Assembly (NCBI GenBank): GCA_902386135.1
Contig: CABMIB010000001.1
Location: 1-62,351 of the forward strand
Origin: an uncultured archaeon
GTDB lineage: Archaea > Halobacteriota > Methanosarcinia > Methanosarcinales > Methanoperedenaceae
DNA length: 62,351 nt
Direction of reading: 5' to 3'
Position numbers and translations under genes: made by a program. Shown piece by piece: positions 1,277 to 59,248 of this stretch. Positions within the stretch are counted from its first letter, which is position 1. The number at the start of each line of letters is the position of its first letter. The notes under the pieces were generated by a model, which was given only the letters and a program-made list of their open reading frames with translations, ran no database searches and was not told where the DNA came from.

Positions 1277-2740
1277 ATGAAATCAGTACCAACTGGGATA
1301 AAAGGGCTGGATATTGTTCTTAACGGAGGATTTAACCATCCTTCAACAGTTTTAGTGGCTGGCACGGCAGGGGCTGGCAAGACCACGCTTGTAATGCAAT
1401 CACTGTTCAATGCAGCAAAAGAAGGGGAGACCTGTGTTTTTATATCAGCCATCTCCGAACCTGTCGCCATGATGGAGAGCTTTGTTTCCAATTACTCCTT
1501 TTTTGATTATTCTTTGCTTGAAAAGAAGAAGATAAGGTTATTTAACGTCGAGGAAGACCTGATCAAAGCAGGGGCGCCTGCGGTTATACAATTTATTGAA
1601 GAAAAAATACAGATGTACAAGCCGAGCAGGCTTGTCATCGACCCTGTGACCGTACTTGCGGAATCAAGGGAAAATGAATACGAGCAGCGCCTTTTCCTTT
1701 TTGAACTTCTCACAAGGATGAAAAGCTGGAACCTGCTCATTCTCCTCACCGGCGAGTTCACTATTGAGAGCCTGAAAGAGAGCCCTCTGGGATACCTGGT
1801 AGATTGCATCCTGCACATTTCCGAGGTAATGGTAGAGGACAGGAGCGAGCGTTACCTGAGCGTAATAAAGATGCGCGGAAGGTCCTATATCTCTGGAAGA
1901 CACACCTACAAACTGAGCAGCGACGGGATTGAGGTTTTCCCAAGGCTGCTTCCTGAAACTGAGTTCAAAGCAGCTTCAACGCTCCGGGTAAGCACAGGCG
2001 TGGAAGGTCTTGACAAAATGCTCAAGGGCGGTCTTTTAAAGGACGACATACTCTTATTTTCAGGAAGCCCCGGTACAGGGAAAACGATCTTCGGTCTCTC
2101 CTTCATATATGAGGGCGCGAGCAAAGGGGAACCGGGTTTGATAATCTCGCTTGAAGAATGGCCTGACAAACTTAAACGGAATACAAAGGCTTTCGGATGG
2201 GACTTTGAGCAATTGGAGAAAAAGAATATGGTCAAATTCCTGTATATCCCTCCGGCACTTTTCAATGCAAATGAATATGCTGTACTGATAAAAGATATCC
2301 TGAAAAAACACAATATTAAAAGGGTCTTTTTTGATGGCATCGAAGATTTAGAGACCGCCCTGCCTGATGTCATAAAAAGGAGGGACTATGTCCATTCCCT
2401 GGTGGATTATTTTGCATCGCAGGGTATTACGACACTTTTGACAAGCGAGATACCGGAACTCTTCGGTTCCATCCGGTTGACCCAGGAAACCCTTTCCGGT
2501 TGCGTAGATACCGTAATACTGCTGCGGCAGGTGGAAGTGGAGGGGCAGATGAGAAAAGCCCTGAGCATTTTAAAATCCCGCGGCTCTGACCACGACAAGG
2601 AAATAAGGGAATTTGTAATAACTGATAAAGGAATAGAAGTGAGGGTCGCCATAAAAGGGTACGAGAACGTGCTTGCAGGCATGGCAAGGAGACCTCCTTC
2701 AGATGTGTTCAGGGAAATGTTCGGTGGTAAAAAATCATGA
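1277..2740 (+). CDS. Double-domain KaiC-like RecA-superfamily ATPase
   Basis: The protein has 487 residues in two KaiC-like domains. The first has Walker A GTAGAGKT (about 29-36), the second GSPGTGKT (about 262-270). Each is preceded by the family signature TGxxGLDxxLxGG (TGIKGLDIVLNGG, TGVEGLDKMLKGG). Archaeal KaiC-like proteins are RecA-fold ATPases implicated in signal transduction; they are not evidence of a circadian clock, and no KaiA or KaiB is visible. The gene heads a tight operon: its TGA overlaps the next ATG by four bases, and a receiver protein and a large histidine kinase follow. It probably acts as an ATP-dependent relay or assembly factor in that pathway, by context only. Confidence 0.85.
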   Translation: MKSVPTGIKGLDIVLNGGFNHPSTVLVAGTAGAGKTTLVMQSLFNAAKEGETCVFISAISEPVAMMESFVSNYSFFDYSLLEKKKIRLFNVEEDLIKAGAPAVIQFIEEKIQMYKPSRLVIDPVTVLAESRENEYEQRLFLFELLTRMKSWNLLILLTGEFTIESLKESPLGYLVDCILHISEVMVEDRSERYLSVIKMRGRSYISGRHTYKLSSDGIEVFPRLLPETEFKAASTLRVSTGVEGLDKMLKGGLLKDDILLFSGSPGTGKTIFGLSFIYEGASKGEPGLIISLEEWPDKLKRNTKAFGWDFEQLEKKNMVKFLYIPPALFNANEYAVLIKDILKKHNIKRVFFDGIEDLETALPDVIKRRDYVHSLVDYFASQGITTLLTSEIPELFGSIRLTQETLSGCVDTVILLRQVEVEGQMRKALSILKSRGSDHDKEIREFVITDKGIEVRVAIKGYENVLAGMARRPPSDVFREMFGGKKS

Positions 2741-3006
2741 ACTACCTGCTGGTGATCCTGTGGATAATCACAATGATACCTTTACTCCTTTTACCTTACA
2801 GTATAGCGCTATTTTACCAGCGCACTTTTAAAAGGATGACCTATCCATATCTTTTTTTGGTTGCCCTTGTCCTGTTCATAGTTTCTTCTCTCCAGTACCT
2901 GTTTCCCTCTTTACTCTGGAGAAACCTGTTCTTTGCATTCGGGGGCGTACTCCTGGGAAGCGCGAGTATCAGGCTGCACCAAGTTATGACAAAGAGGTGG
3001 AAATGA
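2737..3006 (+). CDS. Small membrane protein of the KaiC/HK operon (89 aa)
   Basis: An ATGA overlap couples it to the upstream KaiC-like gene. The 89 residues form about three hydrophobic spans (roughly 3-27, 36-58 and 64-82) separated by short basic turns such as QRTFKRM. I do not recognise a family. Position between an ATPase and a two-component pair suggests a membrane partner of the signalling complex. Its end overlaps the next small membrane gene by ten bases, so the two were probably co-translated. Confidence 0.65.
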   Translation: MNYLLVILWIITMIPLLLLPYSIALFYQRTFKRMTYPYLFLVALVLFIVSSLQYLFPSLLWRNLFFAFGGVLLGSASIRLHQVMTKRWK

Positions 3007-3302
3007 TACTTGAGTTCGGTCTTTTCTTCCTGGGCATCCTGGGCTTACTTGTCTTTTATACAGCACTGGCGCACCTCAGCGAAAGAATGGGTGAAGGGAT
3101 GGGCGCCCCGAAATATTATCTGCTGTACTATTTTGCTATTATAGTATTAATTATGACTATATCTGCAGGCTGGCAAATCCACTACACATCGAGTACGACT
3201 TCCGAGGATTCCCTATTTGCCCTGCTCATAATTGGAAATTCAATCGTTCTTGCTGCTTCTTATAAATACTGGTGGTGGTTAAAAGATGAACTTCTTAAAT
3301 AA
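2997..3302 (+). CDS. Small membrane protein of the KaiC/HK operon (101 aa)
   Basis: The 101 residues have hydrophobic spans near 4-24, 43-61 and 72-92, and a linker holding LSERMGEGMGAPKYY. It starts inside the end of the preceding small membrane gene and ends 20 bases before the receiver gene. No family is recognised. Two consecutive mini-membrane proteins between a KaiC ATPase and a receiver are the least explained part of this operon; they could form a heteromeric sensor or anchor. Confidence 0.65.
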   Translation: MEMILEFGLFFLGILGLLVFYTALAHLSERMGEGMGAPKYYLLYYFAIIVLIMTISAGWQIHYTSSTTSEDSLFALLIIGNSIVLAASYKYWWWLKDELLK

Positions 3303-3322
3303 GGAAAAGTGGAGTAAACCGC

Positions 3323-3688
3323 ATGAGTAAGAAAATAATGGTCGTAGATGATGAACCTGATACCGTGGACCTGGTAAAGCTTGTACTTGAAACAGAGGGT
3401 TTTGAGGTAATAACCGCTTACAGCGGCAGCGAATGTTTGAAGAAATTAGACGAAGAAAAACCCGATGCGGTACTTTTGGACATAATGATGCCTGAAATGG
3501 ACGGATGGGAAGTATTCAAGAAAATAAAAGAAAAGCACCGGCATTTGCCTGTGGCAATGCTCACAGTAAGGAACCAGGATATCGATAAAATGCTCGGTCT
3601 GCATGTACTTAAAGCAGATGACTATATCACTAAACCTTTCGGGAGAAAAGACCTGGTTGAAAGAGTCAAAAAAATGGTTGAGTCGTGA
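3323..3688 (+). CDS. Stand-alone response regulator receiver protein (CheY-like)
   Basis: A 121-residue single REC domain with all key residues: acidic pair D9/D10, phosphoacceptor D53 (LLDIMMPEMDGW), T81 and K104. There is no output domain, so it must signal through protein contact, as archaeal REC-only proteins commonly do. The stop TGA overlaps the GTG start of the histidine kinase (GTGA), so kinase and regulator are translationally coupled and very probably a cognate pair. A plausible output partner is the KaiC-like ATPase at the head of the operon (inference). Confidence 0.9.
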   Translation: MSKKIMVVDDEPDTVDLVKLVLETEGFEVITAYSGSECLKKLDEEKPDAVLLDIMMPEMDGWEVFKKIKEKHRHLPVAMLTVRNQDIDKMLGLHVLKADDYITKPFGRKDLVERVKKMVES

Positions 3689-6600
3689 AAAGTTTGAGGA
3701 TAAGCCAGAAATTAGTAATCTCTTTAATAGTAATATCTCTCCTGCCCTATGCTATAATAAGCTACATCAATTATTCGGCAGAAAAGGCCGCTCTGGAGAA
3801 AACGATATTCGATGACCTGAGCGGGATTGCTGAGGCGAAGAAAACACACATTTCAACTGTTGTGAACTTCAGAGTAGAGCAGATAAAGGAGATCTCTTCA
3901 TCAAATTTCATGCAGGAGATAGAAAGTAAGAACACAAGCAATCTTGCCTTTAACCTTGAAAGAGTAAAAAAGGACATCCCTGTGTTCCTTAAGATGACAG
4001 CGCTTGACCACAATGGTATTGTCGTGGCTTCCACGGAGAGAAAACTGATAAACACGAACCAGTCCGGAGAAGATTTTTTTAAAAAAGCTAAGGAAAACCT
4101 GTACATTGGCAATATAAGTTATTATGATAATACGACCGGCTATATTATAGCGTCTCCTGTATTAAATAGGAGCACAGGCAAATTCATTGGCGTACTTGCG
4201 GTCACGGTTTATCCCATGCTCATATACGATGTTACCGGTGATTATACAGGACTGGGAGAAACCGGTGAAACCCTTCTCGTCCAGAGAAGAGGAAATTATG
4301 TTGTTTATTTGAATCCTTTACGTCAAAATAAAAGCGCGGCTTTGCAGCTCATGTTTCCTCTTGACTCTAACCTTGCCCAGCCGGCAATCCATGCAGTAAA
4401 CGGAGAAAATGGCACCATCCAGGCACTTGATTATCGTGGGAAAGAAGTTTTTGCTGCGTATACCTATATTCCTGTTATAGGCTGGGGGTTAGTGGTAAAG
4501 ATAGATTCTTCCGAAGCGCTGATACCTGTAACAAGGTCTAAAGAGAGGTCAATCGCACTGGGCATATTTTACTTTGCTGTAATATCATTGTTAGCATATT
4601 TTTTAGGCAAGAGGTTTGCAGGTCCCCTTGTACGGCTTTCAAATGCATCCAGAAAAGTAGCCAAAGGTTATCTGGCTGTTCAAATAGAACCTGAGAGCAA
4701 AGATGAGATCGGCGAACTTGCACAGTCTTTCAATTTAATGGTAAAACAGTTGAAAGAATTGTACGAGGGCTTGGACCAGAAAATAAAGGAGAGAACCAGG
4801 GACTTAAACAGAAGGAACCTTGAACTTTCTGCGCTGGTCAAAACGAACCAGAGCATTTCAAGCGGTCTTGATCTGAATAAAATCCTGGACATCGCAGTCA
4901 GGGAAGCAGTAAAAATAGTCAACGTCTCCCATTGTTCCATAATACTTGTGGAAGAGGGAAAAGAGTATGGGACCGTAACTTCCGAATACAGTCCCAGAGA
5001 CCACCTGAAACCATCCCTTGGGGAAATATTGTATTTTAAAGATTTTCCATTACTGAATGAGGCATATCAAAATAAGCAGTATGTACTGGTTGAAGATACT
5101 GCAAAGGCGGAATTATCCCCGAAAGAAAAAGAGATGGCAGAAAGGCTGGATATAAGGTCTATCCTTGTAGTGCCTCTGGTTCTTGGGGAAAAGACGCTGG
5201 GAATGATGCTGTTGAGCAGCCTTGGTGAAGAAAAAGAATTCACTGAACAGGAAATAGGCATCTGCCAGACGATTGCAAACCAGGTGGCAATCGCTATTGA
5301 AAACGCCCATTTATATTCCGAGCTCAAGGAACATGATAAAACCCTGGAAATTCTCTTTGAAATCGACAGGGTTGTGAGCCAGTCCCTGGATCTTGATGAA
5401 CTATTAAGGGAGGCGGTGGCAAAATCTATCCAGGTGACATCCTCGGATGCAGGCTGGATTTATTTACTTGAGACTGATGAGAAAACTCTCAGCATGAGAA
5501 CCTATACAGGCATATCCTCAGAGCTGGCACAGGCTGCCTCAAAGCTGACAATAGAGCAGGGGGTATCGGGACTGGCCGTTAAAGCAGGTAAACCGGTAAC
5601 CATGGAAATTGAGGACTTTCCCTATGTTGAGTTTCTTCCCCTCATGTTAAAAGATGGTATAAGTTCCCTTGCCGGCGTTCCTCTCATATCAAAGGGAAAG
5701 GTCGTCGGGGCTATGGTCCTCTCAACCCGCAAGCATAGGCTCTTCTCAAAAGAAGACCTTGATATTCTCGCATCCATAGGCAGCCAGATAGGAGTGGCGG
5801 TCGAAAATGCCAGATTGTATTCTGAACTAATGAGCCGCAGCCAGACCATGGAGATACTTTTTGAAATCGACAGGGTAGTGAGCCAGTCTTTAGATCTGAA
5901 TGAGATATTCAAAGAGGCGCTTGCTAAAACCTTGCAAGTTACATCAACCGATGTCGGTTCGATATATTCACTTGAAGATGAAGGAAAAATGCTGAAATTG
6001 AAGACTGCTAGGGGGCTTTCCGATACCTTTATAAAAACTGTTTCTGAAATAAAGATCGGTGAAGGTGTTGCAGGGAGGGCTGTTCAAATTAAAAAACCGT
6101 TTGTCACGGATATAGATCACTATCCCACCCGTTCTCTTTTACCCTCTTTAGAAAAAGAGGGGCTTGTTACGCTTGTGGGTGTGCCGCTTATGGCTAAAGG
6201 CAATGTAGTAGGAGCCATGAACCTTGCAAACCGCAGGCGCAGGGTATTCACGAAAGAAGATATTGATGTCCTGGCATCCATAGGTAGCCAGATAGGCGTT
6301 GCAATTGAAAATGCCAGATTGTACCATGAATCCATGATTTCCTACGAAAAACTGGAGGCAGCGTACGAAGAACTTAAGTCCCTGGACAGGATGAAAAGCG
6401 AGTTCCTCTCAAACGTTTCCCATGAGCTGAAGACCCCACTCGTCTCGATCCGCGGATACAGTGAGCTTATGTATGATGATAAGCTCGGCGCCCTTACACC
6501 GACCCAGAGAAAATCCCTGGAAGCCATAATCAGGAATACCGACAGGCTCACCAGGCTGATAAATAGTTTATTATTTTTAAGCGTGCAGCAGATAGGCAAA

Positions 6601-11138: not shown

Positions 11139-12210
11139 TAGGACTTACGCATTTGCCCTCAAATAGTTATTAGCAGCACATCTATTGATAGTAGCCTTTT
11201 GCTCATACCATGATATATTTTCCTTTAACCGTCTGATTTCTAACTTAATAAACGCTACAAAAGAAGCAAAAATATGAGTTTTTTGAGAAGATGCCAGAGT
11301 AGAATAGCACTTCTCTATTCCTGTTGTTTGCTTGATTCCCCTGTGAAATTCTTCTATCTTCCACCGCTGCTGAAAATGATTTACGAAATCATCGTAATCT
11401 TGTAGAGTTAAATCACTTGTTGCCAGATACGTAATGTCGCCATTCTTGTCAACTATCTTACATACCAAGATGAAACCAAATTCCTTAAGCCAGACTTTCC
11501 TCACTTGTTTTTCAGCAAGATCCAAATCAGCTATAGGAATATAAGTTCCTTGGATAACATTGATTTTACGGTTAGATTTCAGACTGCAAATGAAATTCCA
11601 TCCGAATTTCTTAGATACAAGTTTAAGGTTGCTAATACTGGAATACCAGGAATCAATCAGGACATAGAGCGGAGAAAAACCACGGTCTTTAGCCCTTTTG
11701 AGCATGTCTTGAAAATGGTCGTTTTTAGTCTTGTCATCGGCCTCTTTTCTGTAGATCCGATAGTCTACGGGAATGAATTCATCTTCATTTGTCCAGAGCA
11801 AATTTACAAGGCAGATACCATTTACCAGCCCATGCTCGTTTCCGCTGTATTGCTTTTTTGCAAGTTCGTTTACTCTTGAGTATTGCTTGTTGAGAAGGGT
11901 ATCATCGCATAACAGGTATCCAGTTTTAACATCAACCAAACTTTTAACCTGGTTCCAAAGGTCAGAAGGCGTAAAATTTGAACTGGATAGCCACCTTGAA
12001 ACCGAATCATGACACAAATCTTCAACAGGAGATACTCTTGACAGTTCTAACCCAGAATATCTATTCTGGTTTGCTATTAAAAAATTGGTATACAATTTTA
12101 AGGAACACTTTTGCTTTTGCATAATTTTATTGCTTCAAAATGTGTTTGTGCAAGCTGAATATTAAAATTATGCTGAGTACGGTTGGTTGAAGTTAATCGC
12201 GTAAGTCCTA
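11139..12210 (-). mobile_element. Complete insertion sequence, 1072 bp, DDE transposase
   Basis: The ends are a 12-bp perfect inverted repeat TAGGACTTACGC (11139-11150) / GCGTAAGTCCTA (12199-12210). They are flanked by the direct repeat AGTTG at 11134-11138 and 12211-12215, the target duplication. One transposase gene fills most of the element on the minus strand. I cannot fix the IS family by eye; the transposase resembles the IS4/IS701 group. Confidence 0.92.
11145..12122 (-). CDS. DDE transposase of the insertion sequence (IS4/IS701-like)
   Basis: The 325-residue protein carries the catalytic fold of IS4-superfamily transposases: first Asp in GYLLCDDTLLNKQYSR, second Asp in YVLIDSWYSS, and Glu in WKIEEFHRGIKQTTGIEKCY (YREK-like region). 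YRIYRKEADDKTKNDHF matches the IS701-type insertion between strands. Its stop lies six bases inside the left inverted repeat end. The frame is intact, so the element may be mobile. Confidence 0.88.
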   Translation of the reverse strand: MQKQKCSLKLYTNFLIANQNRYSGLELSRVSPVEDLCHDSVSRWLSSSNFTPSDLWNQVKSLVDVKTGYLLCDDTLLNKQYSRVNELAKKQYSGNEHGLVNGICLVNLLWTNEDEFIPVDYRIYRKEADDKTKNDHFQDMLKRAKDRGFSPLYVLIDSWYSSISNLKLVSKKFGWNFICSLKSNRKINVIQGTYIPIADLDLAEKQVRKVWLKEFGFILVCKIVDKNGDITYLATSDLTLQDYDDFVNHFQQRWKIEEFHRGIKQTTGIEKCYSTLASSQKTHIFASFVAFIKLEIRRLKENISWYEQKATINRCAANNYLRANA

Positions 12211-27098: not shown

Positions 27099-27815
27099 CT
27101 GATAAATGAAATTGTTATACAAAATGCTGCCACAGCCGGGATTGAGTGGTTAAATAACCAGGAACCCACGGCAGTTAAAGATATATCCAGGACGATCCAG
27201 GCATTATCATTATGGGGCGAGATGACATCCGGCCTGGTTGAAATACTATTATCAAAGAAAAAAGACGGATACTGGGAAACGGATAAGCCTGTTGTTGATA
27301 CTGCAAGAGCGTGCAGCGCGCTGGCTGGATGCGGGATAATACATTCGGATGCCATCAACCGGATCCTGGAACGACAGGAGGATGGCAGCTGGAATAATAA
27401 CGAGATTGATACTTCATACGCCCTGATAGCACTCGGGGACGCTGGCATAAAAAATGAGCCCGGATGCGAGTGGCTGCGGCGCAATTACGGAGAGAGATGG
27501 GAGCATGTGGGCACAACATCGCTGATAATCACGGCTCTCCTGAGGCAAAATAAAACAAAATACGAAGAGTTCATAAAAGACCGCTCAAGCTGGCTTCTTT
27601 CTAAAAGGCAATCCGGAGGATGGACTTATATCGCTACAAGCAACCTTGCAATTCAGGCATTGATGCTGGCAGAAGAAGCTGATATTACGCCATCTATCCA
27701 ATGGCTTCTGGGAAAACAGGATAACGGCAACTGGGGAGATATCACTTCAACTTCACTTTCGTTGATCTCTTTAAAGATGTACCTGGATAAACTTAATGCT
27801 CATTTGTGTTCATGA
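27099..27815 (+). CDS. Prenyltransferase/terpenoid-cyclase-type toroid repeat protein with non-standard start
   Basis: Four to five repeats of the alpha/alpha-toroid kind occur: DGYWETDKPVVDTARACSAL, DGSWNNNEIDTSYALIAL, GGWTYIATSNLAIQAL and NGNWGDITSTSLSLISL, with QW-like Gly-Trp motifs as in squalene cyclases and protein prenyltransferase beta subunits. The first in-frame ATG is 27222, but coding-like sequence in the same frame runs back to about 27099 (ILINEIVIQNAATAGIEWL) with no ATG, GTG or TTG. GAGGT at 27088-27092 sits six bases before CTG 27099, so CTG (or ATA 27102) may start it. At about 238 residues it is short for an enzyme; the function is unknown. Confidence 0.6.
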   Translation: MINEIVIQNAATAGIEWLNNQEPTAVKDISRTIQALSLWGEMTSGLVEILLSKKKDGYWETDKPVVDTARACSALAGCGIIHSDAINRILERQEDGSWNNNEIDTSYALIALGDAGIKNEPGCEWLRRNYGERWEHVGTTSLIITALLRQNKTKYEEFIKDRSSWLLSKRQSGGWTYIATSNLAIQALMLAEEADITPSIQWLLGKQDNGNWGDITSTSLSLISLKMYLDKLNAHLCS

Positions 27816-27837
27816 AAGGGGGCGCAGAGAGATAATC

Positions 27838-28854
27838 ATGAGCAAGAGAGCAGCAGTAATAAAAGGTGACGGCGTTGGCCCGGAACTCGTTGAGAACATG
27901 CTACGGGTGGTCGAGGCTGTCGGCACGGATATTGAATTCATACCATGTGAAGCGGGCGCCGAATGGTGGCAGCAGCACGGCGGGGATTCGCTTATCCCTG
28001 AAGAGACATGGAAGATACTGGAGAGTACGGATGCTGCCTTCAAAGGTCCGACCACAACGCCCGGCGGCGCAGGTTCCCCGAAGAGCGTGGCTGTCTCTAT
28101 CCGCCAGAGATTCAATCTCTATGCCAATGTCAGGCCTGTAAAATCCTTCCCCAATACCCAGAAACCGCTTGGTGATGTTGATTTCGTATGCGTGCGGGAG
28201 GGCACCGAAGGATTCTATTTTGCCAAGGAGATACAGTTGACCGACGATGTTTTTATCTCGATAAGAAAAATCACGCGGTCGGCATGCAGGAACGTGGCGC
28301 ACTACGCGTTTGAAGAGGCGGCACGCCGCGACTGGAAGAGTGTCGTGGCGATCCATAAGAGCAATATATTGAAGCAGACGGACGGGACATTTATCGAGGA
28401 AGTCAGGAAGGTTGGCGAGAATTATCCCGGCATCGGGATGGAAGAATACCATATTGATAACATTGCGCAGCAGTTGATAAAGAACCCGCAGCTCTTCAAT
28501 CAGAAAATCCTTCTCTCAACCAACCTTTTCATGGACATCCTGAGTGAGGAGTGCTCTGCGCTCGTGGGCAGCATCGGGCTCATTTACTCTGCCAATATCG
28601 GGGATAACTATGCCATGTTCGAGCCAGCGCACGGCTCTGCGCCAAAATACGCAGGACAGGATAAGGTGAACCCTGTGGCGACGGTGCTTGCGGGCGCGTG
28701 GCTTCTTGATTATCTGGGTGAGAAAGAGAACTCGAAGGCGATATTTGAAGCGACTGAGAATGTTATAGCCGAGGGAAAATACCTCACCTATGACCTTGGC
28801 GGAAGCGCAAGGCAGAGCGAGATGGTAGATGCGATAATCAGGAAGCTCAGGTAG
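27838..28854 (+). CDS. Isocitrate/isopropylmalate dehydrogenase family, probably NAD-isocitrate dehydrogenase
   Basis: Start ATG 27838 is preceded by GAGAGAT; a frame from 27796 is longer but lacks a site. The 338 residues have the family order: IKGDGVGPEL, GPTTTPGGAGSPKSVAVSIRQRFNLYANVRP (quoted as two pieces GPTTTPGGAGSPKSVAVS and IRQRFNLYANVRP), the EGTEG loop, Lys in AIHKSNILK, YHIDNIAQQL, and the NAD-site FEPAHGSAPKYAG. The Ser and Asn/Val in SPKSVAVSIRQ line the substrate loop; this variant resembles the enzyme of Methanosarcina annotated as NAD isocitrate dehydrogenase. 3-isopropylmalate as substrate cannot be excluded. It supplies 2-oxoglutarate for amino-acid synthesis. Confidence 0.8.
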   Translation: MSKRAAVIKGDGVGPELVENMLRVVEAVGTDIEFIPCEAGAEWWQQHGGDSLIPEETWKILESTDAAFKGPTTTPGGAGSPKSVAVSIRQRFNLYANVRPVKSFPNTQKPLGDVDFVCVREGTEGFYFAKEIQLTDDVFISIRKITRSACRNVAHYAFEEAARRDWKSVVAIHKSNILKQTDGTFIEEVRKVGENYPGIGMEEYHIDNIAQQLIKNPQLFNQKILLSTNLFMDILSEECSALVGSIGLIYSANIGDNYAMFEPAHGSAPKYAGQDKVNPVATVLAGAWLLDYLGEKENSKAIFEATENVIAEGKYLTYDLGGSARQSEMVDAIIRKLR

Positions 28855-38123: not shown

Positions 38124-39320
38124 ATGACTAAAATACAATTAACGGATGGAGTTTACTGGGTAGGTGTCGTGGACTGGAACCTGCGGGATTTTCACGGCTA
38201 TACCACCCCGCGAGGGGGAACGTACAATGCCTACCTGGTAGTGGGTGAAAAAATAGCTCTTGTTGACACCGTGAAACACGGTTTTGGCGGGGAGATGATC
38301 GAAAAGATAAAAGAGATCGTAGACCCCTCAAAGATAGATTACGTTGTCTCAAACCACGTTGAGATGGATCATTCAAGTTCCCTGCCTGATATCATGGAGA
38401 TAGCTACGAACGCGCAGGTCATAGCCACTGAAAAGGGAAAAGAGGGTTTGCTCAGGTATTACAGGGGTAACTGGAATTTCAGGACAGTTAAGACCGGCGA
38501 TGAACTGGCGCTTGGCAAAAAGACGCTGTTCTTTATTACCGCACCGATGCTCCACTGGCCTGACAGCATGTTCACTTACCTGAAGGAAGATAAAATACTG
38601 CTTTCCAACGACGGGTTCGGGCAGCACCTTGCCACATCGTTCCGGTTCGATGAAGAGATGTGCAGCCTTATAGGGTACGAATGCGACACGGTGATGGACG
38701 AGGCTGCCAAGTATTATGCCAATATCCTGATGCCGTTTGGAGGTATTATCCTTAAAAAAATCGAGGAAATCCAGAAACTTGGCATCGAGATAAAAATGAT
38801 AGCGCCATCGCACGGCATGATATGGAAAAACCCGGCTAAAATAATCGATGCGTATCTCTCCTGGGCTAAAGGCGCCTCAAAGCAGAAAGTGCTTGTCATT
38901 TATGATACCATGTGGAACAGCACCGAGATAATGGCGCAGGAAATCCTGAGGGGCGTATCAGACTATGGCGTGGAGGTATCGCTTTTCCATCTGCGCAGGA
39001 ATGAATGGAGCGAAATAGTAAAGGAAGTGCTTGAGAACAGGGCAATCATTATAGGTTCGCCGACGCTGCACAACGGGATGTTCCCCACCGTGGGGGGCTT
39101 TCTGACCTATCTGATGGGCTTGCGTCCAAAGAACAAGCTCTGGGCGACCTTCGGCTCCTACGGCTGGGGAGGCGGGGCGGTGAAAGCGGTAAACGAGAAA
39201 CTGAAGTCGTCAGGATACGAGCCGGTCGAGTCGCTTGAAGTCAATTTCAGACCTGACGGGCAGGACTTGGCTAAGTGCTATGCTCTGGGGCAGAAGATAG
39301 CTTCGATGGTCAAGGCTTAG
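38124..39320 (+). CDS. fprA: Flavodiiron protein, F420H2 oxidase type (FprA), copy 2
   Basis: The 398-residue paralogue of the 35190 gene has HVEMDH, LHWPDSMF, NDGFGQH and APSHGMIW diiron ligands and the C-terminal flavodoxin domain (VLVIYDTMWNSTEIMAQ, SPTLHNGMFPT, GSYGWGGGAVKA). A short insertion (SLIGYECDTVMDEA) distinguishes it from copy 1. The two copies could differ in substrate (O2 or NO) or in expression. It is divergent from rubredoxin, with shared control in 38021-38123. It ends in TAG, followed by a strong hairpin. Confidence 0.92.
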   Translation: MTKIQLTDGVYWVGVVDWNLRDFHGYTTPRGGTYNAYLVVGEKIALVDTVKHGFGGEMIEKIKEIVDPSKIDYVVSNHVEMDHSSSLPDIMEIATNAQVIATEKGKEGLLRYYRGNWNFRTVKTGDELALGKKTLFFITAPMLHWPDSMFTYLKEDKILLSNDGFGQHLATSFRFDEEMCSLIGYECDTVMDEAAKYYANILMPFGGIILKKIEEIQKLGIEIKMIAPSHGMIWKNPAKIIDAYLSWAKGASKQKVLVIYDTMWNSTEIMAQEILRGVSDYGVEVSLFHLRRNEWSEIVKEVLENRAIIIGSPTLHNGMFPTVGGFLTYLMGLRPKNKLWATFGSYGWGGGAVKAVNEKLKSSGYEPVESLEVNFRPDGQDLAKCYALGQKIASMVKA

Positions 39321-39526: not shown

Positions 39527-39667
39527 GAATTGAACCTCGGATACAGGATATTGGATATGCGTCTTATTTCTTTCGGTTATATCGTTCCGGACTGGCTCTG
39601 GTAAGCGCCGATGAACGAAATCTATAAGATGAGACGGCGGTTATTTTAATAGGGGAAAGAAGTGGTC

Positions 39668-40744
39668 ATGAGCATAACCGATTTAATAAATAATTATGTT
39701 GAATTTATAACCGGAGCCGGAGCATTGCTGGGATCGTATACCGGAATCCAGGTAGGGACAACGCCTTCAGAGGTGGTATACAGCGAGAACAAAATGAAGC
39801 TCCTCCATTATCTTCCGACTGTAAAAAAACAACACCCGGTTCCGGTATTCATAGTTTACGCGTTTGTGAACCGCTATTATATCATGGACCTCCAACCCGA
39901 TAAAAGCGTGGTAAAAAGATTGCTGGATGAGGGTTTTGATACTTATATCGTTGACTGGGGGTATCCCTCAACCGATGATAGGCACCTCACGCTTAACGAT
40001 TACGTGAACGATTATTTAAATAACGCAGTGGACAGGATAAGGGAAATATCGGGCTCAGAGAGGGTAACGCTGACGGGCGTATGTCATGGCGGGGTCCTTT
40101 CTTTGATGTATGCTGTACTGCATCCCGAAAAGGTAAAGAACCTTGTTGTACTGAACACACCTGTGAACTTTGACACGGATAAAAGCCTTCTCAACATCTG
40201 GTCAAAAAGCCTGGATGTGGACCGGCTTGTGGATTACTATGGCACGGTCCCGGGGGAATTAATGAACATAGGGTATTTTTTTGTAGACCCTCTCAGGAAT
40301 ATGATCGACCTGTATTCTGGCGTATATGATAGGACTGTTTGCGAATCGGATGATACAAAATGTCCGCAGTTAGATGAAGAAAGCATAATGACGTTCTTCC
40401 GGCTCATGAAATGGGGTTCGGACAATCCGGGACAGGCGGGCGAAGCCTACAGGCAGTTCATCAAGGACTGCTATCAGAAGAACTTACTTATAAAGAACGA
40501 GATGGAAATAGACGGGCAGAGGATCAATCTAAAAAATATCACCATACCTTTACTTAATATCATGGCAAAGTACGATAATTTCATTCCCAACGATTCAAGT
40601 ATACCGCTGAACGATGCCGTATCGAGCGTGGATAAAACGATGGCGATTTTCCCCACAGGGCATATAGGGATCTTTGTGGGCTATGAATCCCAGAAGGATG
40701 TCTGTCCCATGATTACAGGGTGGCTCAAGCAAAGGTCTTTCTGA
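39668..40744 (+). CDS. phaC: Poly(3-hydroxyalkanoate) synthase, class III PhaC type
   Basis: I start at ATG 39668 (GGGGAAAGAA upstream), giving 358 residues. It has an alpha/beta-hydrolase fold with lipase-like box GVCHGG holding Cys139, Asp303 in AKYDNFIP and His332 in PTGHIGIF, the catalytic triad of PHA synthases. VDWGYPSTDDRHLTLNDYV and the length near 355 match the short class III/IV type that needs a partner PhaE or PhaR; none is visible here. It joins hydroxyacyl-CoA units into storage polymer. PHA genes are unusual in archaea outside haloarchaea and are known in Methanoperedens. Confidence 0.92.
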   Translation: MSITDLINNYVEFITGAGALLGSYTGIQVGTTPSEVVYSENKMKLLHYLPTVKKQHPVPVFIVYAFVNRYYIMDLQPDKSVVKRLLDEGFDTYIVDWGYPSTDDRHLTLNDYVNDYLNNAVDRIREISGSERVTLTGVCHGGVLSLMYAVLHPEKVKNLVVLNTPVNFDTDKSLLNIWSKSLDVDRLVDYYGTVPGELMNIGYFFVDPLRNMIDLYSGVYDRTVCESDDTKCPQLDEESIMTFFRLMKWGSDNPGQAGEAYRQFIKDCYQKNLLIKNEMEIDGQRINLKNITIPLLNIMAKYDNFIPNDSSIPLNDAVSSVDKTMAIFPTGHIGIFVGYESQKDVCPMITGWLKQRSF

Positions 40745-42483: not shown

Positions 42484-44523
42484 TTATCTCAGGCTGAGCG
42501 CCTTCCCGACCGCATCAAAAGCCTCTTCAAGTTCTGCGAAATTCGGTATGGAAGCCTTTCTCAATATATGCACACCGCTCTTCATACTGTTGCCCCCGAG
42601 CAGGCATCCGACTATCATTTTATGGGTGTGGTTCGAGAACCTTACGATCTCCTGGGCGAGATGCCTTGAATCCAGGACGCCCGAGGGTACTGCAATAACA
42701 AATGTAATATCCCATTTATCCTGGTTGCGTATCATTACATCGAATACGCGGGCATACCTGTCTGCTCCGGCGTCTCCAACTATATCCATCGGGTTCTCAT
42801 GGCTCCATTCCGGCGTCAGGAAGGAATTCAGCTCATCCATTAATTTTTTTGAAAGGTCTACAATTTCAACGCCGTACTTCTCAGCATAATCCGTAGAAAG
42901 AACTGCAAAGCCTCCGGCATTAGTTATGACTGCTGCCCTGTTCCCTTTCGGGTAGTCCTCGGAAGCAAGAAGCTCACCTATCTGGAATGCCTCTCTCAAA
43001 GAATGAGTGGCAATGACCCCTGACTGTTTAAATGCTGCCATGTACACCTGATAGCTTCCTGCAAGAGCACCTGTATGCGACGACGCTGCCTTCTGACCTC
43101 TTTTCGAGGAGCCAGATTTTATCGCTACGATCGGTTTTTTCTCCGACACCTCACTTGCGACCTTCATGAACAACCTGCCGTTTTTTATTTCCTCGATGTA
43201 GAGAACAATGGCTCTGGTGTCTGTATCGTTTCTTGCGAATTTCAGGAACTAATCGAAACCCAGGTCGGCTTGATTGCCCACGCTTATGACGGCAGAAAGC
43301 CCTATATCTATATCTTCCTTCAGGCTCCAGTCCACTACTGTAGTAATAATAGCGCCACTTTGAGAAATGAATGCCAGGCCGCCGGGCTTGGGGTTTGCAG
43401 GGTCAAATGTTGCATTTATCTTTTTATGCGGCAAAATAATCCCAAGGCAGTTCGGACCCACCATCCTGATGCCGTATTTTTGCGCGAGCTGCGATATCTT
43501 GTCCTGAAGCTCTTTTCCTTCATCGCCTATCTCCTTGAAGCCTGCTGTTATAACGACAGCCAGTCTTACACCCTTTTTACCGGCTTCTTCCATAATTTCA
43601 GGAACCACCTTCGCAGGGACTGTTACAACAATAAGGTCAACCTTATCCTGGATGGATGCCAGGTTCGGGTAAACTTCGCGCCCGAGTATCTCTTTTCTTT
43701 TCGGATTCACAGCATACAGTTTACCCGGAAAGTCAAGCAGGTTCCTGAAAACAGAATACCCTACTTTGGTGGGATCAGAAGAAGCCCCAATAACTGCAAT
43801 GGATTCAGGGTAAAATATATCTGCCGGAACTTCTGTCTCTTCTTTTTCCTTGTGCTTGACCTCCTCTTCGCTCTCGTATATCCTCGCATCGACAGCGCAC
43901 GCTCCCTTTTCATATAGTATTAGCGGATTTATATCAAATTCAACAAGATTATGGCTCTCATGGAATAACTTAGAGATATTATTAATAATCTGTACTAATC
44001 CCTTCTCATCCTTAGGCGGCTCACCCCTGTAGCCCTTTATGAGAGTGTATCCTTTTATCTCATGTACCATCTTCTCTATATCATCTGTCTCAATCGGAAG
44101 AACTTTCATTGAGACATCTTTCAGGAACTCAACAAGTGTCCCGCCAAGCCCGAAAGTGAGCATCTTTCCGAAAGAAGGGTCGGTCTTTCCGCCTACTATC
44201 AGTTCAAGCCCCGAAGGCATATCTTTCTCAATGATTATCCCGGTTATCTCGGCATCGGGAACTTTTTCCTTTACATTATGCATTATCTTATTAAAGGCAT
44301 TTCTTACCTCGTCCTCGTTTTTTATTCCAGTTATGACCCCGCATGCATCGCTTTTATGAACTACCTGGGGCGAGACAATTTTTGCCACGACAGGGTACCC
44401 TATCTTTTCAGCAGCCTTTGCAGCCTCGTCAGCACTCTTTACGATCTCATGCGAAGGTACAGGGACATCGTGTTCCTTCAGCAGGTCGTATCCTTCAGCC
44501 TCGGTTAGCAGCCTCTTTTCCAT
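42484..44523 (-). pseudogene. ADP-forming acyl/acetyl-CoA synthetase (fused beta-alpha), interrupted by an in-frame TAG
   Basis: The frame covers 680 codons. Residues 1-225 are the ATP-grasp (beta) part (LTEAEGYDLLKEHDVPVP, GLGGTLVEFLKDVSMKVLP), about 240-370 the CoA-binding part (VIGASSDPTKVGYSVFRNLL, in 20-residue form), then ISVGNQADLGFD. Codon 425 is TAG (43249-43251); the same frame continues FLKFARNDTDTRAIVLYIEE and includes the phosphohistidine in SSHTGALAG (about 483). No frameshift or other damage is seen. Without read-through, two shortened products would lack the active His. The intact enzyme would make acyl-CoA or, in reverse, ATP from acetyl-CoA. TAG is used as an ordinary stop elsewhere in the window. 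Confidence 0.85.
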
Positions 44524-44650: not shown

Positions 44651-47116
44651 TTATAATTTGAATTTAGCTTCTTCCGCCTCGACCGGACGTTCCAGCCGCT
44701 TATGGAAATAGATCTTAATAAAATCGGTTATTACAAAGGCTGCTAATGCCCAGCCCCATACCAGTCCTGCAAGCCACCAGCCGAGCGGATTCATAAAAAC
44801 GCCATATACAGCCAGCAATGTGGCAAGAAGCTGCGTAGTTTCAGTCGTTCCGAACAGTATTTTAGCCGGATAAGGTGGAGTCCAGGCATGGCGCGCTTCG
44901 CCTACTCTGGTCAAATATATGGTCATATGACCTCCTGCTGCAAGTTTCAGGAACATAAGCGTCTGGATCGTAGGCCTGGGCAGGTGCAACACTTGATCGG
45001 CGACAAAGAACAGGCTGAAACTTGAGACAACCCCGATTATGCCGAGTACGGTTGCAATAGTCAGCACTTTGCGCATTTCCCAACCTGTGGGTCTTTTAAG
45101 GGGCTTGGTATTATCATAAGCTATAGTCATTATTGGAAGATCATTTAGCAATGACAGAATAACTATCATCACTGCAGTCAGCGGGTAGAAGTTGAAGATA
45201 ATGATGGCAAGAGTCAGGAATATCAGTACACGAATTGTCTCAGCAATACGATACGTGGCATAGCTGTTCATCCGCTTGAATATTTTGTGGCTGGTCTGGA
45301 TAGCATCAATGATAACAGAAAGCCCAGGTTTTGTAAGTACTATCGCTGCTGCGGATTTAGCTGCATCAGTAGCGCCTGCAACTGCGATTCCTGCATCCGC
45401 CTTCTTAAGAGCAGGGGCATCATTTACCCCGTCGCCTGTCATACCCACAATATGATTTTTTTTCTGAAGCAGGTCAACGATGCGGTACTTATGCTCAGGG
45501 AAGACCTCGGCAAAACCATCCGCTTTTTCGACTGCATCCTCCGCCTCTTTATCAGGTTTATCCATAAAGGCTGAGGAAGTCAGGATATTGGTGCCCATAT
45601 GCACCTGCGCTGCTATGTTCTTGGCTATAGCTACGTGGTCACCTGTGACCATTTTTACGTTAACGCCCATGGATTGCGCTGTCTTTATGACCTCAGCCGA
45701 ATCCTCGCGCGGCGAATCGGAGATAGCAAGAAGTCCTATATACTGCCACTTCCCCTGCTCATCTGTCTTGGCTACCCCGAGAGGACGGTGCCCTTTTTTA
45801 GCAAAATCATCCACAGTTTCATTAACTTTGGATTCGATATCCTTATTTTTCACAAGCGCCAGAATGGCCTGCGGCGCTCCTTTGGACACTTTGTATTTTT
45901 TACCATCGGGGTCTTTTACTGTAGCTTCTGTGCGTTTTATAACAGGATCAAACGGTTTGAACTCCGATACATTATATGCACCGCTCTTTTCCACAAGCTC
46001 TTTCTCTGCTTTGAATTTATCTATAACCGCCATATCAATGGGATCCTGGTCTTCCTCTCTGGACGCCAGGGTCGCGACCAGCAGCACGTCATTATCTTTG
46101 AACCCCTCAAAAGGCTTAACTTCTGCAATCGACAACTGGTTCTTGGTTATAGTGCCGGTTTTATCCGCACACAGGATATCCATGCCTGCCATTTCCTCGA
46201 TGGCTACGAGCCTGCTGACAATGGCTTCCTTTTTAGCAAGGGCGATAGCGCCTATTGCCATAGTGACCGATAAGACAGCAGGCAGCGCGACTGGTATGGC
46301 TGCAATCGTCAGGACCAGTACGAACTGTAGTGTCTCAAGAACTCCTGCGTGGCGGTAAAGAGCGATGATAAATACTATCGCTACCAGCACAACATCTATT
46401 CGAATAAGGTAATCTCCTATCCGGAGGATTGCTTTCTGTAAATGGCTCACAGCCTTTGCTTCCTCCACCAGCTTCGCTGTTTTGCCAAAATAAGTGTTCA
46501 TCCCCGTAGTGACCACAAGACCGTTCATTTCCCCCTTTTTGGCCAAGGAACCTGAGTATGCGATATCGTTAACATGCTTTTCAACAGGCTGGGATTCGCC
46601 GGTCAGCGCGGATTCGTCCGCCAGTAGATAGTCCCCTTCTATGAGTTTGATATCTGCCGGAATTACCTCACCCGGGCGCACCCGCACTATATCCCCCGAA
46701 ACAAGTTCCCGGGCGGCAATCTGCTGCCATTTGCCGTCACGCAGAACCCGTGCCTTGAGCGCCAGCTTCTGCTTTAGTAGCTCAATGGCATTCTCAGCCT
46801 TATTTTCCTGCCAGAATCCTACGACCGCATTTATCAGTAACAAAGCTAAGATTATCGCGAAATCCTCCCAGTGCCGGATTATTGCGGACAGGATAATCGC
46901 GACTTCTATCATCCAGGGGATTGGTCCCCAGAAATATTTTAAGAATTTAGTAAATTTACTCTCCCTCTTTTTAGTGATCTCGTTAGGACCATACTGCTCA
47001 AGCCGGTTTTTTGCTTCCTGGCCAGAAATTCCCCCTTTACTCGACGAGAGCTTCTTCATCAGCTCATCTATAGATGTCTTCTTTGCCTCATCAGTACTGA
47101 TTTTAGTCTGGTTCAT
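44651..47116 (-). CDS. P-type (P3A) proton-efflux ATPase
   Basis: Start ATG 47116 follows GGGAGAAC, giving 821 residues. It matches plasma-membrane H+-ATPases: LSGQ-like cytoplasmic N terminus (KLSSSKGGISGQEAKNRL), LTGESQPV, phosphorylated Asp318 in DKTGTITKN, KGAPQAIL, MTGDGVNDAPALKKADAGIAV and about ten membrane spans, the last cytoplasmic tail short. Residues such as VLTIAAIPVALPAVLSVTMA mark TM4. It likely expels protons at the cost of ATP. Archaeal P3A pumps are less common than V/A-type ATPases. It reads alone. Confidence 0.93.
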   Translation of the reverse strand: MNQTKISTDEAKKTSIDELMKKLSSSKGGISGQEAKNRLEQYGPNEITKKRESKFTKFLKYFWGPIPWMIEVAIILSAIIRHWEDFAIILALLLINAVVGFWQENKAENAIELLKQKLALKARVLRDGKWQQIAARELVSGDIVRVRPGEVIPADIKLIEGDYLLADESALTGESQPVEKHVNDIAYSGSLAKKGEMNGLVVTTGMNTYFGKTAKLVEEAKAVSHLQKAILRIGDYLIRIDVVLVAIVFIIALYRHAGVLETLQFVLVLTIAAIPVALPAVLSVTMAIGAIALAKKEAIVSRLVAIEEMAGMDILCADKTGTITKNQLSIAEVKPFEGFKDNDVLLVATLASREEDQDPIDMAVIDKFKAEKELVEKSGAYNVSEFKPFDPVIKRTEATVKDPDGKKYKVSKGAPQAILALVKNKDIESKVNETVDDFAKKGHRPLGVAKTDEQGKWQYIGLLAISDSPREDSAEVIKTAQSMGVNVKMVTGDHVAIAKNIAAQVHMGTNILTSSAFMDKPDKEAEDAVEKADGFAEVFPEHKYRIVDLLQKKNHIVGMTGDGVNDAPALKKADAGIAVAGATDAAKSAAAIVLTKPGLSVIIDAIQTSHKIFKRMNSYATYRIAETIRVLIFLTLAIIIFNFYPLTAVMIVILSLLNDLPIMTIAYDNTKPLKRPTGWEMRKVLTIATVLGIIGVVSSFSLFFVADQVLHLPRPTIQTLMFLKLAAGGHMTIYLTRVGEARHAWTPPYPAKILFGTTETTQLLATLLAVYGVFMNPLGWWLAGLVWGWALAAFVITDFIKIYFHKRLERPVEAEEAKFKL

Positions 47117-47395
47117 GTTCTCCCGATCCTTTATCAAACAAATTTAATTGCAAAGTTCGTTTACCGTAAGGTAACTCAGGAATTAGTCAGCGAATGCTAA
47201 TTAGCCAATGTGCATTATACCCCACGGCTGGTTTCTTCTACAGCAAACCCACAAATGATGTATTGAGATTGATGTTATTTAAAGCCAACGAAAAAGTTAA
47301 AAATACAATCAGGCGAAGGCGGCTATCCCACGGGTTGGTAGCCATCTATATAATAGTTAAAGGTTGTAATACGCTTATTGAATTTTTCTCAAACA
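47117..47395. other. Promoter region of the H+-ATPase and flanking spacer
   Basis: No gene is visible. TTACCGTAAGGTAA (47161-47174) is a small palindrome about 45 bases upstream of the ATPase start on the minus strand and could be an operator. Confidence 0.3.
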
Positions 47396-47593
47396 TCACT
47401 GAACAAGTTTTTCCACTTCGGAAATGAATTTAAGGCTGATGGTGTAGATTTCGTTCATGTCCTCATTTGTTTCGATCATATCCAGAGAATACTGGGTGGT
47501 ATGCCTCAGGTCGCGCAACGAATCGAGAACCAAGATGAACTTTTTATCAAGTCGATCTTTTAATACATACTCCGATTCAACATACCTCGCCAC
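47396..47593 (-). pseudogene. HEPN-domain-like C-terminal fragment
   Basis: The frame runs KNHYFVARYVESEYVLKDRL before and through a GTG at 47593, then FILVLDSLRDLRHTTQYSLD and ends EVEKLVQ. The pattern YFVARxYV...LRDLRHxxQY is that of the C-terminal helices of archaeal HEPN-type proteins, RNases or nucleotidyltransferase partners. The N-terminal half is missing and is replaced by a solute-binding-protein fragment, joined in another frame near 47595-47615. It is probably a non-functional remnant. Confidence 0.5.
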
Positions 47594-48192
47594 AAAATAG
47601 TGGTTTTTAGTGTATATAGAAATTCAGGATAAGCGTTTTTCCTGATAATACTGAATGTAGTCTCATTCTCGACTTTTGGCTCGACAAATACAGTTTTCCC
47701 GTCCGCTTCCTCCTGCCAGTCACCTGCATAGGGATATGCCATCCAGTCTGCAAACATGAGGTTCTTCATGGTGTATACAAAATCCTCAGATGTTACAGGC
47801 TTCCCATCGCTCCATTCAAGGTCATCCCTGATGGTTACAGAATAAATTAAACCGTCATCCAAGACTTTAATATCATTTTTAAGCCATCTGAGCAGATAAT
47901 TGAAATCATTGTCATATGTTCCAAGCCCATCAAGGGTTAGACCTATATAACCAAAAGAGGTAGCGTCTCCCGCCAGTATCCAGTTCACTGTTTCAGCGTC
48001 CCCGCCCGATGCGCCATCAATAAAATCACCTTTTACTTTAGGAGACTCCTGAACAGTTGTATTCTGCGCAGTCATATTCCGCGCATCCTGCCCCTTCTCC
48101 AGGCATCCGGCCAGCCCTACCCCTCCTGCCAGAAGCCCTGCCTTTGCACACATTCCCACAAATCTGCGCCGTGTCAGGTTCACTTTTATCAA
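47560..48192 (-). pseudogene. Truncated family-5 extracellular solute-binding lipoprotein
   Basis: The frame encodes a twin-arginine/lipoprotein signal (LTRRRFVGMCAKAGLLAGGV, then LAGC as lipobox at about residue 30), followed by the start of an OppA-type peptide/nickel-binding protein (NWILAGDATSFGYIGLTLDG, TVRDD-like IRDDLEWSDGKPVTSEDFVY, MKNLMFADWMAYPYAGDW). It stops at about 210 residues, where the family has 500-600, and the last ten residues come from an out-of-frame HEPN-like stretch. Likely start TTG 48192 or GTG 48183. The permease genes are absent. A deletion joined two unrelated genes here. Confidence 0.75.
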
Positions 48193-58256: not shown

Positions 58257-58300
58257 ATTTTAATACTAACCTGACTATAAATGGGGTGAGGTATATAGGC

Positions 58301-59248
58301 TTGAGCTTTGTGGGAAATCTATTATATGGTGGTTACGAGATTTTGCTAACCAATGAAATAAAGGATAAGCCTGTCCCGTCTCATGTTGCTATAATAATGG
58401 ACGGCAACAGGCGCTTTGCACAAAAATACGGGCTTGCGAAGTATTACGGTCATTTCAAGGGGGCGGATACCACGGAAAAGGTGCTTGACTGGAGCTTTGA
58501 CCTGGGCATCCGGCAGCTCACCGTGTATGCATTTTCAACCGAGAATTTTACAAGGTCGGAAGAAGAAAAGAACCAGCTTTTTGAGCTTATCGGCATCAAG
58601 TTCGATGAAATATGCAGCGACAAGCGCACCCACCGGCGCCGCATGAGGGTCAGGGTGATCGGGAACACGGACCACCTCCCGAACTCACTGCGGTCGGCTG
58701 CGAAACACGCCGAAGATGTAACAAAACACTACAACGGTGTGTATCTCAATGTTGCGCTTGCCTACGGAGGCAGGCAGGAGCTTGTGGACGCAACGCGCTC
58801 CATGGCACATAAGATAAAGAACGGCAAGCTGTCTTTGAGGGATATCAATGAAGAGACCATATCACGTAACCTATATCCGTCAAGCGGTTCGGTGCCCTGC
58901 GTTGATCTTATCATCCGGACAGGCGGAGATGAACGTATCTCCAATTTCCTCCCATGGCAGGCGAACGGGAACGAATGTGCAGCGTATTTCTGCGCCCCGT
59001 TCTGGCCTGAGTTCCGGAAGATAGATTTCCTCCGGGCTATACGCACATACCAGACACGAGAGCACGAGAGGCAGAAAAATACCGTTATGAGGGTTGTCAA
59101 AATGCTAAGTTATTACGGGAAGGTGGAAGTGGAAGATGTGATCAGGATATCAAGGAGATTCATTACAATCCCCAAGCATGAGGTAATAAACATACTCCAT
59201 GAACTGGCGCATCACAATGCTGTGGTGTACAATATGATAAAATGGTAG
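58301..59248 (+). CDS. uppS: cis-prenyltransferase (undecaprenyl/polyprenyl diphosphate synthase family)
   Basis: GGTGAGGT at 58285-58292 is a strong ribosome site and sits eight bases before TTG 58301, which I take as start (315 residues); a GTG at 58286 overlaps that site. Catalytic Asp34 is in IIMDGNRRFA, followed by YGHFKGADTTEKVLDW, TVYAFSTENFTRSEEEKNQL (20) and the C-terminal DLIIRTGGDERISNFLPWQ. It makes the long polyprenyl diphosphate used as sugar carrier in surface glycan assembly, linking to the glycosyltransferase cluster at 14251-21352. Ends in TAG. Confidence 0.92.
   Translation: MSFVGNLLYGGYEILLTNEIKDKPVPSHVAIIMDGNRRFAQKYGLAKYYGHFKGADTTEKVLDWSFDLGIRQLTVYAFSTENFTRSEEEKNQLFELIGIKFDEICSDKRTHRRRMRVRVIGNTDHLPNSLRSAAKHAEDVTKHYNGVYLNVALAYGGRQELVDATRSMAHKIKNGKLSLRDINEETISRNLYPSSGSVPCVDLIIRTGGDERISNFLPWQANGNECAAYFCAPFWPEFRKIDFLRAIRTYQTREHERQKNTVMRVVKMLSYYGKVEVEDVIRISRRFITIPKHEVINILHELAHHNAVVYNMIKW

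Follow-up and report, generated by a model that had tools for sequence, protein, structure and literature searches.

In a Ca. Methanoperedens-like archaeon, one in-frame TAG crosses the frame of an ADP-forming acyl-CoA synthetase, which raises the question of whether this codon ends translation and leaves a dead allele, is decoded as an amino acid, or is absent from the cells and present in the assembly only. The window, i.e. the whole stretch of DNA that was analysed (62,351 nucleotides), belongs to a draft genome of 3,243,210 bases in 120 contigs that is 99.18% complete and 2.49% contaminated. An initial annotation had placed the gene at 42484-44523; these coordinates are right, and the strand, which it lacked, is minus. 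It had also described a single TAG at codon 425 (43249-43251) in a frame that is otherwise intact, and this holds: from an ATG at 44523 to a TAA that forms codon 680, the frame of 679 codons contains exactly one internal stop. The features of the locus are as follows.

42484..44523, minus strand: frame of an ADP-forming acyl-CoA synthetase with one TAG inside, recognised from the reading frame, Pfam and NCBIfam
43249..43251, minus strand: in-frame TAG, codon 425, in an aligned column that is Asp, Glu or His in 23/23 relatives
43249..44523, minus strand: the 424 residues that would be made with termination at the TAG, with the ATP-grasp unit and its H56, CoA-binding subdomain 1 and the start of subdomain 2
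43075..43077, minus strand: codon of H483, which aligns with the swinging-loop histidine H256 of Nmar_0206, 3' of the TAG
42484..43173, minus strand: mechanical downstream ORF with a TTG start, 229 aa, in the same frame and not counted as a separate gene

The TAG at codon 425 thus interrupts a frame that would otherwise cover all ACD subdomains, and 254 codons remain open past it. Possible internal starts in this 3' part are a TTG at 43173, in the same frame, and the codon of Met at residue 453. Among 45 gene-like ORFs of the window, which were hand-picked from the ORF list and are not a gene prediction, TAG ends six besides the synthetase, and the next stop follows after 1, 10, 26, 20, 2 and 13 codons; compared with these 1-26 codons, 254 open codons put the pattern at codon 425 far above chance. 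A scan of the window for stops flanked on either side by 120 or more open codons yielded eight places, and the codon-425 site was the only TAG. The four genes that the initial annotation had named as ending in TAG (219-899, 38124-39320, 58286-59248 and 27796-28854) all do so and belong to these six, and its argument that such genes speak against a general reassignment of TAG is borne out by next stops within 1-26 codons. General reassignment was rejected on the grounds that a next stop lies close behind the six other gene-ending TAGs and that no CUA tRNA was found in an incomplete tRNA survey.

Read through the stop, the protein matches three Pfam domains, all far above their cut-offs, namely ATP-grasp_5 (PF13549, residues 3-215), CoA_binding_2 (PF13380, 241-364) and Succ_CoA_lig (PF13607, 380-519), and the domain set of the ACD superfamily is present. 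The Succ_CoA_lig match bridges the stop, with family sequence on both sides of it, in agreement with the earlier statement that family sequence goes on after the TAG. The nearest NCBIfam models are 3-hydroxypropionate--CoA ligase (NF045492, 506.8 of 1300 bits) and Archaeoglobus-type acetate--CoA ligase (NF045494, 502.8 of 1200 bits); as these scores are far under both equivalog cut-offs, no substrate is assigned from NCBIfam. In Nmar_0206, the phosphate-carrying histidines are H535 in the ATP-grasp unit and H256 in the swinging loop of subdomain 2, according to PMC11494057. By alignment, H56 corresponds to H535 and H483 to H256, so both ACD histidines are present and the second lies after the stop, as had been claimed for the catalytic phosphohistidine. 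Paralogues at 38-46% identity are found elsewhere in the host genome.

Most likely, translation ends at this UAG, after residue 424. The resulting stub would keep the ATP-grasp unit with H56 and CoA-binding subdomain 1. Without H483, the greater part of subdomain 2 and the ligase subdomain, it could not finish the phosphate relay to acyl-CoA. In the two-chain ACD 4xyl (chains A and B), as well as in the C59 pair of paralogues, the break separates the ATP-grasp part from the CoA-binding part and does not fall inside subdomain 2. The stub is predicted to be inactive.

The codon has no counterpart in related genes. In an alignment of 23 relatives, made up of 21 of the 26 loci of the homologue set plus two loci from another search, the column of codon 425 holds Asp in 18, Glu in three and His in two, and a stop in none; L096, L097, L099 and L103 were left out as partial or broken and L102 as distant. 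The host copy thus carries a disabling lesion where none of its relatives (0/23) has a stop. The closest of them, all from Ca. Methanoperedens, are L078, L079, L080 and L081, which align along nearly their entire length at 85, 75, 74 and 73% identity, respectively.

The part of the gene behind the stop bears no mark of decay. Relative to L078, dN/dS is 0.085 before the stop and 0.036 after it, figures that are rough with dS above 1. By parsimony, the host copy has accumulated 20 synonymous and four amino-acid changes after the stop, and L078 29 and eight (Fisher P 0.75). Had constraint been lacking for more than about 5-7% of the branch, one would hardly expect as few as four amino-acid changes (at 5%, P is 0.07, and at 7% it is 0.03). 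In the same way, the host copy deviates in two of 169 invariant columns (G61C and P292Q), within the range of 0 to 16 seen in the 23 relatives. These comparisons show a post-TAG region that appears to be under strong purifying selection. Neither dN/dS nor the invariant columns reveal relaxed selection in the host copy, nor would any be expected from a lesion of very recent origin. Purifying selection that is undiminished after the TAG means that the stop arose very recently, does not exist in the cells or has no effect. A long-decayed pseudogene was rejected on dN/dS and on the invariant columns, which do not single out the host copy.

Decoding of the codon as pyrrolysine, which the initial annotation had offered together with a fresh nonsense mutation and an assembly error, was examined by the search for pylS and pylT that it had proposed. 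The best score of the host genome with the PylS model (TIGR02367) is 30.2 bits against a cut-off of 178.15, and the 131-residue stretch behind this match scores best as histidyl-tRNA synthetase. Across the order, pylS exceeds the cut-off in 45 of 119 genomes, and in none of the 34 genomes of the host family. A tRNA-Pyl pattern, allowed up to three mismatches, matched in 45/119 genomes of the order, by eye the same 45 as pylS, and in 0/34 of the family, host included; its reversed control matched nowhere. Of note, in another family, one contig (L130) carries pylS and tRNA-Pyl together, and the other genomes of that family that were searched show no tRNA-Pyl. In the accessible part of PMC4683180, the word pyrrolysine appears once, within a reference title.

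Other amber-reading tRNAs were sought in the host genome with the Rfam tRNA family, which gave 45 matches, 43 of them above the gathering score, from 150 scored out of 170 first-look candidates, an incomplete survey. Asp, Tyr and Trp tRNAs, which any cell needs, are missing among these matches, so the survey is not exhaustive. ARAGORN names 38 of the 45, none with the anticodon CUA; among the other seven, it names two when introns are allowed (Glu and Gly), three were assigned by eye to the anticodons CAT, TTT and CCT, and the two sub-threshold Rfam matches have no CTA on the matched strand. Within this incomplete survey, no CUA tRNA was thus found. Moreover, two patterns that combine a CUA anticodon loop with a T-arm behind it matched twice each, against 10 and 14 times for the reversed controls, and ARAGORN recognised no tRNA at any of these four matches, whether introns were allowed or not.

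The gene is patchily distributed and repeatedly damaged in the family. In a search with a loose cut-off, used since a stricter E-value cut hid shorter remnants, it occurs at 70% identity or more in 10 of 34 family genomes; among the matches listed, the remaining ones in the family reach at most 47% identity and include paralogues. The 24 genomes that lack it include incomplete ones, and absence here counts assemblies, not cells. The 10 genomes hold 11 loci, of which one (G024) is split across two contig ends and the others are as follows.

Open and full-length, none split (six loci): G001 C8, G002, G003, G005, G006, G012
Broken, with lesions that differ (four loci): host copy, G001 C1, G029, G016

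In L099 (LFW-280_4), which is identical to L104 of G029 across 3657 bases, codons 1-283 are missing beside the rest and a frameshift lies near codon 462. L103, which agrees with G016 in contig number and position, retains only codons 562-677, at 93% protein identity; in this Methanoperedens bin, a tRNA-His gene lies some 200 bases away from the 116-codon remnant (2724-3348). The second copy in M. nitroreducens, L096 (the G001 C1 region), has an insertion near codon 474. This insertion (4407-4625) is bounded by a 12-base inverted repeat (GAGCCTATCCGA) and encloses a run of 100 N; it is probably an unresolved insertion element. Together, these loci suggest that members of the genus can do without the acyl-CoA synthetase and that its gene has disappeared in more than one way. 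One ADP-dependent ACS gene is mentioned for M. nitroreducens MPEBLZ in PMC4683180, and PMC7414198 describes acd genes from bins of both ANME-2a and ANME-2d; in both cases this gene or a paralogue may be meant. No report of a loss of this gene was found in those parts of the Methanoperedens literature that were searched.

The genes around the synthetase are listed below.

44651..47137, minus strand: P-type (E1-E2) ATPase, which adjoins the synthetase gene also in L078/L014, L017 and L099
41206..42471, minus strand: patatin-like protein, 12 bases downstream, apparently intact
39662-40744, plus strand: PhaC-like alpha/beta hydrolase, beside the broken synthetase gene

One might guess that the PhaC-like hydrolase and the patatin-like neighbour are tied to polyester storage. 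The P-type ATPase gene is itself adjoined by a SBP_bac_5 solute-binding gene (47560-48192, minus strand) that is seemingly short, since its Pfam match is confined to positions 9-93 of 368; it too may be broken. Farther off in the window, a DDE transposase gene with DDE_Tnp_1 and ISC1217-like matches lies at 11145-12122 on the minus strand.

What does the TAG then stand for? The locus is likely to be a very recent nonsense null allele, in which an optional gene for an ADP-forming acyl-CoA synthetase has reached an early stage of pseudogene formation. This reading is drawn from the single TAG, the lack of pylS and tRNA-Pyl, the failure to find a CUA tRNA in the incomplete survey, the Asp/Glu/His column, the occurrence of the gene in only 10 of 34 family genomes, the four of 11 loci that are broken in different ways and the presence of paralogues. 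We infer with it that the cells do carry the stop, that it terminates translation efficiently and that the stub has no activity. What speaks against it is that selection has not relaxed, which fits a very recent stop and equally an error or read-through. An error in the metagenome consensus, or a minority-strain allele chosen by the assembler, would leave the gene intact in the population; a lone lesion with the selection signature intact behind it, in a draft genome of 120 contigs, would be expected under this account, and it is a serious if rather unlikely candidate. The three other loci of the genus that are broken otherwise raise the prior for a real loss, with the reservation that those assemblies may err too.

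The remaining accounts keep the enzyme active. Polypeptides from either side of the stop might assemble into a two-part enzyme, the second being started at the TTG or at the Met codon noted above, and two-chain ACDs such as 4xyl do exist; nevertheless, these separate the ATP-grasp from the CoA-binding part whereas the host cut falls within a single domain (Succ_CoA_lig), and the six full-length family loci are unsplit, which makes such an assembly very improbable. Read-through or recoding of UAG by an unrecognised, pyrrolysine-independent mechanism would still yield full-length synthetase and would have left its mark in the undiminished selection behind the TAG, and the tRNA survey that missed Asp, Tyr and Trp could also miss an unusual suppressor tRNA. 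However, CUA-loop patterns are rarer than in the reversed controls, none is a tRNA by ARAGORN and the stop is common to no relative, so that this mechanism is barely credible. As for pyrrolysine itself, nothing beyond the TAG speaks for it, while pylS and tRNA-Pyl are each at 0/34 in the family against 45/119 in the order and the best PylS-model match belongs to a histidyl-tRNA synthetase; as far as can be judged from a genome of 99% completeness, its probability is negligible. Of the three readings first offered, the fresh nonsense mutation consequently fits best, an assembly error is less likely and pyrrolysine is not supported; the alignment of the position in homologues, also proposed then, gave no stop in 23/23.

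The locus, as a probable nonsense allele, drops out as a recoding candidate in ANME-2d archaea. With pylS and the tRNA-Pyl pattern both at 0/34, in-frame TAG codons in these genomes are not to be annotated as pyrrolysine. The apparent loss of an optional synthetase in several ways bears on the variation of acyl or acetate metabolism in the genus. The TAG-broken synthetase is in itself an ordinary finding that carries little weight alone.

Compared with known systems, the host copy has its domain order in common with single-chain, ATP-grasp-first ACDs (PDB 9y43/NF045492, and NF045494) and aligns with them over nearly the full length, but it scores far below their equivalog cut-offs and carries an internal stop. 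It also differs in that stop from the full-length Ca. Methanoperedens orthologues L078, L079, L080 and L081. The broken copies L096, L099 and L103 are the same gene and likewise not intact, although their lesions are other than a TAG. Finally, pyrrolysine-containing proteins of Methanosarcinaceae-type archaea have an in-frame TAG within a long conserved frame. The host synthetase resembles them in this respect, and it departs from them in that its genome has neither pylS nor tRNA-Pyl by the searches used here and that its TAG recurs in no relative.
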